DNA of 64,000 nucleotides from Thermoanaerobaculum sp. GTDB lineage: Bacteria; Acidobacteriota; Thermoanaerobaculia; Multivoradales; UBA5704. Location: positions 1 through 64,000 of the forward strand of contig JAJKHS010000081.1 of assembly GCA_021154885.1 (NCBI GenBank), written 5' to 3'. Below, piece after piece: positions 60,498-64,000 of the stretch (its first letter is position 1; every line of letters begins with the position of its first letter). Below the pieces are notes generated by a model that had not been told where the DNA came from, did not search any database, and saw only the letters and a list, made by a program, of their open reading frames with translations. A program made the translations under genes and the position numbers.

Positions 60498-61685
60498 ATG
60501 AACCAACAGAACAGGCAGGACATCCTTGCGCTCGAGACCCACCTCGGCACCGAGCTGCACCGCCGCTCCACCGAGTTGACCCGCGCCTGGCTGGACCGGC
60601 TGATCGAGCGGCTGGACGTCCATCCGCGCCGTATCTTCCCCACCGACGCCCTGCTCAACCACATCCCCGAGGTGCTGCGGGCCATCTCCGACTATCTCTG
60701 CTCCGACGGCGCCCTGGAGCACGAGGAGATGCTGCGGAGCGAATTCGGCAAGATGGCCCGGCTGCGGCGCGAGCAGGGCTACGACATCGACGAGATCCTG
60801 GCCGAGTTCGAGATCCTGGGCGAGATCCTCTACAACGCCCTGCGGGAGGAGGCGCGGCGGTTCGGGCGCAAGGTGCCTCCCGACTATGCCATCGAGGTGG
60901 CCGAGCGCCTCTACCGCTCGCTGACGGCCATCACCACCATCACGGCGACGACCTTTCGCGAAGAGGGGTTCCGGGACCGCCGGGAGCGGGCGCGGCTGCT
61001 GGGCGGCTTCGGCCGCGAGCTGGCACACGAGCTGCGCAACCGCCTGAGCACGGCCGAGGCCGCCCTCCACCTGCTGGAGGCGAACGGCGTCGACCCGGCC
61101 ACCCGCGAGCGGACGCTGCGCACCCTGCGCAATACCCTGCGACGCATCAAGGGGGTGGCAGACGACGTCCACTCCCTCGCCATCGCCCAAGGGAGCGAGG
61201 AGGGGGCGCAGGGCAGGCGCCTGTCGCTGCGGACCCTGCTCGAAGAGGCGGTGGACGAGCTGCGGGGGATCGCGGACGAGAAGGCGGTGCGCATCGAGGT
61301 CCGGGAGCCCATCCCCGACGTGCAGGTGGACGCCATCCGGGTCGAGCTGGCGCTGATCAACCTGGTGGGCAACGCCGTCAAGTACTCCGATCCTGGGGAG
61401 GAGGAGCGCTGGGTGCGCATCGCCGTGCAGCGTGACGAGGAGGGCTACTGGCGCATCTCCGTCTCAGACAATGGGATGGGCATCCCGGACGACATGCAGG
61501 ACCGGGTCTTCGAGCAGTTCGTCCGCGCCCACCCGGGCATCGCCGACGGCACCGGCCTGGGGCTCGCCATTGCCCGCTCCGCCGTCGAGCAGATGGGCGG
61601 CAAGATCTGGCTGGAGAGCAAGCCCGGCATCGGCACCACCTTCCACTTCACCGTGGTGGACCCGCCGGCGGCGCGGGAGGACTAG
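60498..61685 (+). CDS. Soluble sensor histidine kinase with RsbRD-like N-terminal domain
   Basis: A 395-residue kinase with no transmembrane helix. The N-terminal all-helical sensor domain (about 10-155) resembles RsbRD N-terminal regions (LTRAWLDRLIERL, EFEILGEILYNAL). The HisKA H box is ELAHELRNRLSTAEAAL, and the ATPase has NLVGNAVKYS, DNGMGIPDDM and GTGLGLAIARS. It probably senses a cytoplasmic signal. No response regulator is adjacent. It lies 120 bases upstream of the RiPP precursor gene, in the same direction. Confidence 0.88.
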   Translation: MNQQNRQDILALETHLGTELHRRSTELTRAWLDRLIERLDVHPRRIFPTDALLNHIPEVLRAISDYLCSDGALEHEEMLRSEFGKMARLRREQGYDIDEILAEFEILGEILYNALREEARRFGRKVPPDYAIEVAERLYRSLTAITTITATTFREEGFRDRRERARLLGGFGRELAHELRNRLSTAEAALHLLEANGVDPATRERTLRTLRNTLRRIKGVADDVHSLAIAQGSEEGAQGRRLSLRTLLEEAVDELRGIADEKAVRIEVREPIPDVQVDAIRVELALINLVGNAVKYSDPGEEERWVRIAVQRDEEGYWRISVSDNGMGIPDDMQDRVFEQFVRAHPGIADGTGLGLAIARSAVEQMGGKIWLESKPGIGTTFHFTVVDPPAARED

Positions 61686-61752: not shown

Positions 61753-61805
61753 CCTCCCACTTCGCGCATTGTGGAGGGAGCATCGTCCCAAGAGGAGACA
61801 AGATC

Positions 61806-62054
61806 ATGAGCGAAGAGCTGAAGAGCTTTCTTCAGAGCCTGCGCACGAAGCCCGAGCTGCTGGCGGAGCTGCGGTCCCTGCATGGGGACCCGGAGGCGGC
61901 GATCCGGTGGGCTCGCGAGCGGGGATGCCATCTGACGCCCGCGGACGTCGCCGAGATCCGGGACAGCGACCGGGAGCTTTCAGACGACGAGCTCGAACAG
62001 GCCGCCGGCGGCGACACCGCATGGCCGCCGCCGCCGCCTCCTCCGGGTCCCTAG
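61806..62054 (+). CDS. Nif11-type RiPP precursor with polyproline core
   Basis: An 82-residue peptide. GAGGAG stands before ATG 61806. The leader (1-69) follows the Nif11/nitrile-hydratase-like leader pattern: SEELKSFLQSLRTKPELLAE, then DPEAAIRWARERGCHLTPAD, then LSDDELEQAAGG, with a double-glycine cleavage site. The core (70-82) is only 13 residues: DTAW, seven prolines, then GP. A peptidase-containing ABC exporter would normally cut after GG and secrete the core. No other Cys, Ser or Lys lies in the core, so conventional lanthionine or thiazole chemistry is not expected beyond Thr71 and Trp73. It is first in a pair with 62079. Confidence 0.8.
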   Translation: MSEELKSFLQSLRTKPELLAELRSLHGDPEAAIRWARERGCHLTPADVAEIRDSDRELSDDELEQAAGGDTAWPPPPPPPGP

Positions 62055-62078
62055 GCCCCCGTCGCTCCCGGGGCGCCA

Positions 62079-63098
62079 ATGACACCGGTCGCATCCCCGG
62101 CCTATGGTGACTGGCTGCGGGTGGCGCGGCGGCACCTGACCTCGCCACTCCGCAGTCCCCAGGCCCTGAATCGCCTGCTCTCCGTCGGCGCTCATCTCCC
62201 GGGAGATTGCCAGGGAGCCCTCGAAGTCCATCTGGGAGCGGGCGGCGCTGTCGACCTGTCGGTTCGCGTCGAGGAACCTGAACAGGCCAGTCGTCTGGCG
62301 GAGCAACCCCTGCCCGCCCACCTGTGTCGTTTTCTGTCCCGCTGGTCCGAGGCAGGAGGCCCGTTTTCCAGCATCCCCTGTGTCTGGCTCGAGCTCGACT
62401 TGGACCGGCCGGTGCAGGGCTTACCCATTCCCTCGGTCTGCACCCGGCTGCCACGGGAGGCAGACCTGGACTGGATCGTCGAATCCCTGCTGCCCGCACT
62501 GCATGGCGGCCCTCTGAGCGAGGCCCAGAGCCGGCTGGTGCGGCGCTGCCACGGCGAGATCCCCGAGGGGAGCTGCCTCCTCTATGTTTTCAGCCTGCTC
62601 TCCCGGCCGGGAAGCCCGGTGCGGATGGAGATCTTCGGGCTCGATCCGGCCGGCGCGCTGGCCTACCTGCACCGCGTGGCGCCCCAGGCCGCCCCACCTC
62701 TGGCCGAGATCGCGCCCGTCTTCGAGGGGATCGAGCGGCCCCACCTCTCCTTCGACATCGGCGCGGAGATCCTGCCGAGGGTGGGCCTCGAAGGCTCCTT
62801 CCCCCGCCAGCGCGAGCCCCGCTGGTCTGAGCTCTTCGCGCGTCTCGTGGCCCGCGGCCTCTGCACGCCCGCGGAGCGGGACGCCATTCTGGCTTGGCCG
62901 GGGTACGACACCTTCTGGACGGCCGCAGCAGACTGGCCCCTGGAGCTGGCCGGCATGGGCGGCTTCTGCGTGCGCAACCTCAGCCACGTCAAAGTGGTGG
63001 CGCAGCCGGGCCGGCCGCCGGAAGCGAAGGTCTACCTGCTGGTCTCTTATCGGGCCGCAGCCAGCTCGCCCGCAAGGCGGTCGGTCCTCTCCACGTAG
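62079..63098 (+). CDS. Unknown protein paired with the RiPP precursor
   Basis: A 339-residue soluble protein whose ATG lies 24 bases after the precursor stop, so the two are co-transcribed. I do not recognise the family. Alternating beta-strand-like and helical stretches are visible: HLSFDIGAEILPRVGLEGSF, then a helix RWSELFARLVARGLC, then FCVRNLSHVKVV and GRPPEAKVYLLVSY at the end. There is no signal peptide and no obvious metal or nucleotide site. By position it is a candidate modifying or binding enzyme for the core peptide. Its 3' end overlaps the TPR gene by 52 bases on the other strand. Confidence 0.65.
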   Translation: MTPVASPAYGDWLRVARRHLTSPLRSPQALNRLLSVGAHLPGDCQGALEVHLGAGGAVDLSVRVEEPEQASRLAEQPLPAHLCRFLSRWSEAGGPFSSIPCVWLELDLDRPVQGLPIPSVCTRLPREADLDWIVESLLPALHGGPLSEAQSRLVRRCHGEIPEGSCLLYVFSLLSRPGSPVRMEIFGLDPAGALAYLHRVAPQAAPPLAEIAPVFEGIERPHLSFDIGAEILPRVGLEGSFPRQREPRWSELFARLVARGLCTPAERDAILAWPGYDTFWTAAADWPLELAGMGGFCVRNLSHVKVVAQPGRPPEAKVYLLVSYRAAASSPARRSVLST

Positions 63099-64000
63099 AC
63101 CGGCAGCCCCAGTTCCGCGAACAGCCGGCGGGCCTCGCCGAGCTGCCCCGCCGCCGCCTCGGACCCGGCGCCAGCCAGCAGCGCCAGATCGAGCCGGGTG
63201 CGGGCCACCTCGAAGGAGGCCTCGATGGCGCGGAAGCTCTCCAGTGCCTCCTGAAGCCACTTCTCCGCCTCCTCCCGGTCGCCGGCCGCGCGGGCGACGC
63301 GCCCCAAGGCGCGCTGGGCCATGCCGCTGCCGTAGCGAAACCGGACCTCCCCGGTGACGGCGAGCGCCTCGCGGGCGAGCTTTCGGGCCTCGTCCAGGCA
63401 GCCCGAGAGGAGACGAGCCTCGGCGAGGAAGGCGGAGAACCAGCCCAGGAGCTGCTTCATGCCGGCCCGGCGCAGCCGCTCCACGGAATCCCCCAGCGCT
63501 TCCGTGGCCCTGGGGATGTCTCCCTTCTCCAGGTAGGCGTAGCCGAGGAAGCCTAGGGCCGCGGCGGTGTTGAGAGGGTCCTGAGCCCGTTCCAGCCCGC
63601 CCTGGCACTCCTCGATGCCGCGGTCGAAATCCCCTAGGGAAGCATGGAAATAACCGGTGCTCCAGGACGGATCGAGCCGGGGGTCCTGAAGGGCGCGCCA
63701 GACCCCCTCGGCTCGTCGCATCCGGTCGAACGCGTCGTCGAACTGGCCCAGGACGTAGTGATGAAAACCCGCCACCCAGTAGGCCTGCCCCTGCCACCAG
63801 CGGTCCGTGCTGCGCTCCAGCAGGTCGACGGCCCGCCGGCCGTGCTCGATTCCCTCCGAAAACCGGCCCGACCAAAAGGCGTCGCGGCAGAGCACGTACC
63901 AGGCGCGACCTTCCGTCATCACGTCGCCGCCGCGCCGCGCGGCCGCAATGGAAACGTGGGCATTGGCCGCGGCCGCCTCCTGGTCGCCCAGGTAGCTGTC
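63047..64000 (-). CDS. TPR-repeat protein (partial, runs off the window)
   Basis: At least 317 residues, open to the right edge with no start in the window. The sequence is a run of tetratricopeptide-like helix pairs, for example GQAYWVAGFHHYVLGQFDDA, then LGFLGYAYLEKGDIPRATEAL and RALGRVARAAGDREEAEKWL. This is the layout of the C-terminal half of large regulators or kinases of the AAA-TPR or Ser/Thr-kinase-TPR type. The missing N-terminal part should decide which. Its end overlaps the RiPP partner gene, so it may belong to the same locus or merely adjoin it. Confidence 0.75.
   Translation of the reverse strand, partial: DSYLGDQEAAAANAHVSIAAARRGGDVMTEGRAWYVLCRDAFWSGRFSEGIEHGRRAVDLLERSTDRWWQGQAYWVAGFHHYVLGQFDDAFDRMRRAEGVWRALQDPRLDPSWSTGYFHASLGDFDRGIEECQGGLERAQDPLNTAAALGFLGYAYLEKGDIPRATEALGDSVERLRRAGMKQLLGWFSAFLAEARLLSGCLDEARKLAREALAVTGEVRFRYGSGMAQRALGRVARAAGDREEAEKWLQEALESFRAIEASFEVARTRLDLALLAGAGSEAAAGQLGEARRLFAELGLPVYVERTDRLAGELAAAR

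Follow-up and report, generated by a model that had tools for sequence, protein, structure and literature searches.

The window, by which we mean the whole stretch of 64,000 nucleotides that was analysed, carries near its end a short precursor gene and a partner gene that starts 24 nt after the precursor stop codon (Table 1). The coordinates and the description of both open reading frames given in an earlier note were found to be correct. The precursor is translated into the leader MSEELKSFLQSLRTKPELLAELRSLHGDPEAAIRWARERGCHLTPADVAEIRDSDRELSDDELEQAAGG followed by the core DTAWPPPPPPPGP, so that the product runs MSEELKSF...LSDDELEQAAGG before the core begins. Against the NCBIfam model TIGR03798 (leader_Nif11) the leader scores 46.0 bits (cut-off 32.3), with residues 3-69 covering the full length of the model, and against Pfam Nif11 it scores 28.0 bits (cut-off 23.8). 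The Nif11-like leader ending in AGG that had been proposed is therefore genuine, and with a score above the curated cut-off and a GG end the peptide belongs to the Nif11-leader RiPP precursors. The leader frame is kept in the congeners, where 44/70 and 47/70 residues are identical. A promoter and terminator scan gave a promoter-like match at the start of the partner gene (62079) and a terminator-like site inside it.

Table 1. Features annotated at the precursor locus, in window positions
Feature	Position	Strand	Details
RsbRD_N histidine kinase, soluble	60498..61685	+	upstream; may not belong to the system
Shine-Dalgarno-like AGAGGAG	61791..61797	+	8 nt 5' of the precursor ATG, read from the sequence
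Precursor ORF	61806-62054	+	249 bp, ATG start, 82 residues
Nif11-type leader	61806..62012	+	69 residues, ends AAGG; TIGR03798 and Pfam Nif11
Leader L(x)4L segment, LSDDEL	61977..61994	+	residues 58-63, shortly before GG
Core DTAWPPPPPPPGP and stop codon	62013..62054	+	compared with 12 relatives
Core Trp73 codon	62022..62024	+	predicted prenylation site; sole Trp of the core
Predicted ABBA-type aromatic (indole) prenyltransferase	62079..63098	+	1020 bp, 339 aa; model repeats, Foldseek matches, invariant residues
Zinc-ribbon / nucleotide cyclase / AAA / TPR protein, C-terminal TPR part	63047..64000	-	Guanylate_cyc, AAA_16, TPR_MalT

Surroundings of the gene pair

In all three members of the genus, and in this genus only, the gene for the soluble RsbRD_N histidine kinase was seen upstream of the precursor gene. 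A regulatory role for this protein is possible, though unsupported, and we do not claim it as a ComP-like receptor given its RsbRD_N sensor domain and its restriction to the genus. The other upstream genes have no evident role in a RiPP pathway. On the downstream side, the gene for a cyclase/TPR protein of 1095 aa (contig 63047-66334; L049:7048-10335) is convergent to the partner gene, overlaps its end and continues past the window. This protein shows a partial match of 300 bits to TIGR03903 (TOMM_kin_cyc), below the full-length cut-off, and is probably a regulator. A member of its family adjoins the partner gene in 8 of the 13 loci of the acidobacterial clade described below. Such a protein was observed beside the partner gene at the window locus (L049) and also at L052, L054, L057, L058, L060 and L061. 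Cyclic-nucleotide-binding proteins are encoded close to the partner gene in several loci, including on the window contig beyond the window, and control by cyclic nucleotides may be a recurrent trait of RiPP production or export in the order.

A complete NHLM (NHLP/Nif11) bacteriocin export system with a C39 peptidase lies on the contig about 16 kb downstream, beyond the window, comprising matches to TIGR03797 (951 bits), TIGR03796 with C39 (1113 bits) and TIGR03794 (382 bits). C39 domains occur on the contig of the partner gene in 9 of the 13 genomes examined, and a GG protease and exporter are thus linked to the gene pair. The system itself has nothing unusual and is probably shared with other peptides, among them at least two other GG precursors on the contig. 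One of these precursors, ending in LADEALDSVAGGELDGGHDTVYATTSQQNDVTHNDATELT (contig 68828-69028), adjoins a grasp-with-spasm pair (contig 66396-69028; L049:10397-13029; TIGR04193, 324 bits; TIGR04192, 277 bits), and pair and precursor together are likely a graspetide locus. A second, Cys-rich GG precursor with AGGSNGNCSCPPGSTATGTYDNGNCSC (contig 74435-74656) follows a TIGR04463-like radical SAM/SPASM maturase (contig 72917-74656; L092:6918-8657) whose score of 204 bits lies below the cut-off. A Lant_dehydr_C protein is also encoded on the contig beyond the window. The small two-gene system that had been described is hence part of a wider setting, in which its contig also encodes an exporter, the cyclase/TPR protein and further RiPP maturases. 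The possibility of an anti-phage system was dismissed as PADLOC gave no match.

Conservation of the gene pair and of the core

Homologs of 62079 were found in 16 of the 72 genomes of the same order and, more sparsely, in 12 of the 396 genomes drawn across the phylum, as well as on cyanobacterial and Azospirillum plasmids. A scan of genome contigs with a single query sequence gave one relative, and a search of viral contigs gave none. In the tree of 27 homologs the window protein falls within a 12-member clade (support 100/99); a thirteenth clade locus from the same genus, L017, holds a truncated gene and was left out of the tree.

A GG-terminated precursor adjoins the partner gene in all thirteen loci of this acidobacterial clade. 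Most of the precursors lie just upstream of the partner gene, with one convergent arrangement (L004/L052), and both orientations are seen. They carry an acidic L(x)4L segment ahead of AGG, and four of them (L007, L011, L012 and L013) appear to consist of this segment only, without a folded Nif11 part. Of the 16 genomes of the order with a 62079 homolog, 11 have a Nif11 leader, as opposed to 3 of the 56 that lack the homolog, and nine of the eleven carry the leader no more than about 0.5 kb from the partner gene. Taken together, the adjacency in every clade locus and this co-occurrence establish that the pairing is real, as the earlier note had held, and with the leader match they bear out the assignment of the locus as a RiPP locus. 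The same note had reasoned that the pairing would be accidental if homologs of 62079 occurred without leader peptides or if the precursor frame was not conserved in relatives; on both points the pairing withstood examination within the clade.

Each of the thirteen clade cores contains exactly one Trp, usually directly after GG. The cores are DTAWPPPPPPPGP (window), DIWPPP, DDNWPPV, WDGNGGGGG, WCGNESTIG (L005), WTNPTNNNGGG, WSGDEPGGGGTGG, WTGDPPPPGTGGGG, WSSSDPPPPPPGGGG, WAGNNPPPDPPPGGGP, WTGDDGGNGGG, WTGDPGS and WTGEGGGDGGDDGSTTGG, some being only 6-7 residues long. Apart from the Trp, Gly and Pro (50 and 33 of 149 residues) make up most of the cores together with polar residues; about half of the cores are Pro-rich and the others rich in Gly, Asn or Asp. 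The Thr and Asp of the window core are not conserved, and the Trp alone is common to all. The conserved core element is the Trp and not the prolines. Polyproline, which had been noted as unusual for a core, was ruled out as a functional signature and is not the defining feature. Two observations count against reading the Trp as a prenylation site: it stands at core position 3-4 in the window genus and at position 1 elsewhere, and a few homologs outside the clade (L045 and L068) lie near precursors without Trp.

Predicted fold of the partner protein

Searches of Pfam, NCBIfam and the PDB sequences gave no match to the 62079 protein, and its homologs, when scanned singly against the HMM libraries, gave nothing above cut-off. 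Among 15 family members, there was no NCBIfam match at E<=1 to the cyanobactin prenyltransferase model TIGR04445, and no match to Pfam Trp_DMAT (PF11991) or PTase_Orf2 (PF11468). Profiles of up to 27 homologs showed no link to ABBA enzymes among the PDB sequences. A search of the genomes with PF11468 and TIGR04445 for reference ABBA sequences gave no match, the controls likewise being without match.

Structure prediction was carried out with AlphaFold on a two-sequence alignment of the window protein and a 52%-identical relative (L002). The model of 62079 has a low mean pLDDT of 53.6 and consists of five alpha-alpha-beta-beta repeats; with L002 as the target the mean pLDDT is 59.6, also low, and the repeat order is alike with the last pair broken. 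This order is the circular order of the alpha-beta-beta-alpha repeats of the ABBA (PT-barrel) class, in which five such repeats make a 10-strand barrel. In Foldseek searches against the PDB the top 50 matches of each model were all ABBA-type aromatic prenyltransferases, with best E-values of 1.4e-4 (62079) and 6.1e-6 (L002), although the TM-scores are modest at about 0.3-0.5, as low-confidence models would lead one to expect, and neither model is independent of the other. The matches include AmbP3, IptA, CymD, MpnD, DMATS1, PriB, FgaPT2 and AtaPT as well as LimF, PagF, KgpF, Orf2 of strain CL190 and EpzP.

Eleven residues are invariant across the 27 homologs, which range down to 21% identity to the window protein: E49, L52, D59, D107, R176, R182, G236, H303, K305, K317 and Y319. 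In DMATS-type enzymes a Glu of the first strand together with barrel-lining Arg, Lys and Tyr residues binds the indole and the diphosphate. On the basis of its predicted fold, and with the low pLDDT, the modest TM-scores and the missing profile link as counter-points, 62079 is a putative ABBA aromatic prenyltransferase. The protein had been described as being of no recognised family; this holds with respect to the HMM libraries, while the fold prediction that had been suggested as a check indicates that it is not a wholly unknown kind of protein.

Proposed pathway and its alternatives

The closest system by description is that of Moorena producens (mpp cluster; PMC11791876), where the ABBA enzyme MppC attaches a geranyl group to one Trp of MppE, a lanthipeptide with a Nif11 leader, and requires both a folded leader and an L(x)4L motif in the leader of its substrate (PMC12715784). 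Comparing MppC by description, the two systems share a Nif11-type leader with L(x)4L, a GG end and a short core with Trp, beside an ABBA-type enzyme that is predicted in our case. The oxygenase and terpene-synthase neighbours of MppC have counterparts beside members of the wider family, L046 for example. The MppE core ACWRWSG, on the other hand, is made into a lanthipeptide by the LanM enzyme MppM before prenylation whereas the window core lacks Cys, and the Trp in the window clade lies within 1-4 residues of GG and is followed by a Pro/Gly-rich tail.

With this precedent and with LSDDEL placed shortly before GG in the window leader, the locus is likely a prenylated-RiPP cassette. The Nif11 leader, L(x)4L segment included, would dock on the adjacent ABBA-type enzyme, which would then move an isoprenyl group from a diphosphate donor onto the indole of the single core Trp. 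The NHLM-type ABC exporter would then use its C39 peptidase to cleave after Ala-Gly-Gly, and the short peptide so secreted would carry a lipidated Trp close to the N-terminus, followed by a Pro-rich tail, which elsewhere in the clade would be rich in Gly, Asn or Asp. The identity of the leader, the pairing, the conserved Trp, the class of fold and the link to an exporter come from computation, while the transfer and its donor, the position on the indole, the order of these steps and secretion are inferred.

Other prenylating enzymes offer partial parallels. The cyanobactin enzymes PagF, LimF and KgpF have the predicted fold in common with 62079 and act on peptides, but they need no leader and take peptides that have been freed and are mostly macrocyclic (PMC12715784). 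Fold matches were best to DMATS-type and bacterial indole prenyltransferases (IptA, CymD, PriB and AmbP3), which act on free Trp or small indoles and show no detected sequence similarity to 62079; the CymD, PriB and IptA structures contain L-Trp or analogues. ComQ/ComX and PalQ yield a prenylated Trp in a short peptide, as proposed for the window product, but the ComQ-type and PalQ enzymes have the trans-isoprenyl diphosphate synthase fold and not the ABBA fold (PMC13290415). This all-alpha fold was rejected for 62079, as its model alternates helices and strands and no such enzyme was found among the top 50 matches.

The Trp could also serve for recognition only, with the ABBA-fold partner modifying the peptide elsewhere, such as on a Thr or Asp oxygen or the N-terminal amine, or using another donor. 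Asp and Thr do precede the Trp in the window core and cyanobactin ABBA enzymes prenylate Ser, Thr, Tyr, His and Arg besides Trp (PMC12715784), but this seems unlikely given that the Trp is the one residue kept in all 13 cores and that many of the best fold matches are indole or Trp enzymes. A decidedly unlikely alternative is that the core is changed mainly by the grasp-with-spasm pair or the TIGR04463-like radical SAM protein, leaving 62079 with another substrate or an accessory role. These maturases lie 3-11 kb downstream and could act on the window core; each, however, has a GG precursor of its own next to it (contig 68828-69028 and 74435-74656), and neither is a constant neighbour of the 62079 family, unlike the Trp precursor.

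It is highly improbable that the pairing is accidental or that the small ORF is no RiPP precursor but, for example, a Nif11-domain regulator. Leader types do vary in the wider family, with NHLP and mersacidin-type examples, and some of its homologs are without an obvious adjacent precursor. The constant adjacency in the clade in both orientations, the Nif11 co-occurrence and the linkage to an exporter have nevertheless largely refuted this reading already.

Association with LanM is seen both within and outside the clade. LanM is adjacent to the L005/L053 locus, with LanM-like genes also in the vicinity of L004, L007 and L013. Outside the clade, L064 and L063 adjoin LanM and mersacidin-type precursors with CLCWSC and CVCWSC in their cores, the Pseudanabaena homolog (L046) occurs with LanM, Nif11 leaders and 2OG oxygenases, and the Azospirillum homolog (L047) with several copies of a leader-like peptide and a LanM-like gene. 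At the window locus the genes called at contig 56000-85725 include no LanM-like one, and the core lacks the Cys that lanthionine formation requires in addition to Ser/Thr. Trp prenylation seems to accompany lanthionine formation in certain lineages and to occur by itself in others. Judging by the sister loci, which have LanM and Cys-Trp cores, the window may hold a lanthionine-free, apparently prenyl-only variant.

Several fusions and unusual neighbours were observed in the wider family. Among distant homologs, L018, L037 and L040 carry squalene-cyclase-like repeats fused to the prenyltransferase domain, and repeat proteins of this kind are neighbours in L036, L041, L046 and L047 (Pfam support is weak for both sets); these suggest cyclisation of a peptide-bound prenyl chain. 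In L044 (L044:1486-2373 and onward, minus strand) the domain is, by inspection, fused to one of radical SAM-like type, and the record annotation of L046 (L046:8737-10530) gives a fusion with a 2OG-Fe(II) oxygenase. About six near-repeat short GG-leader precursors with Cys-rich cores (GGGYCTGCEGCDRCNGCDGQGGG) lie 3-5 kb from the prenyltransferase gene at L060:11058-12876, and an NHLP leader without a GG core (TIGR03793, 60 bits) lies just upstream of a distant homolog at L062:6619-6813.

The system had been thought undescribed. No paper on an acidobacterial prenylation system was found in the openly readable literature, but MppC is a characterised precedent, leader-guided Trp prenylation by an ABBA enzyme having been described in 2025 (PMC12715784). 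What is new is the acidobacterial clade, the cores that lack Cys, a window locus that in addition has no LanM, the shortened leaders seen in part of the clade, and a family absent from Pfam and NCBIfam. Tentatively, these loci could form a RiPP class of their own across the acidobacterial order, in which Trp prenylation of a short, mostly Cys-free, GG-released peptide is the defining and sole core change; this class would be related to lanthipeptide prenylation, having lost the enzyme for lanthionine formation, and its products may be ComX-like secreted lipopeptide signals.

The proposal gives testable chemistry to a protein family outside Pfam and NCBIfam. Members of this family turn up repeatedly in the RiPP clusters of Acidobacteria, cyanobacteria and Azospirillum, either by themselves or as fusions with cyclase-like, 2OG or radical SAM domains. 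The clade would provide minimal precursor-enzyme pairs for leader-guided Trp prenylation without lanthionine chemistry, of use in enzymology and peptide lipidation. As its members occur with and without LanM, the combining or separating of prenylation and macrocyclisation is open to direct examination, and a secreted prenyl-Trp peptide would resemble the ComX signal in form.
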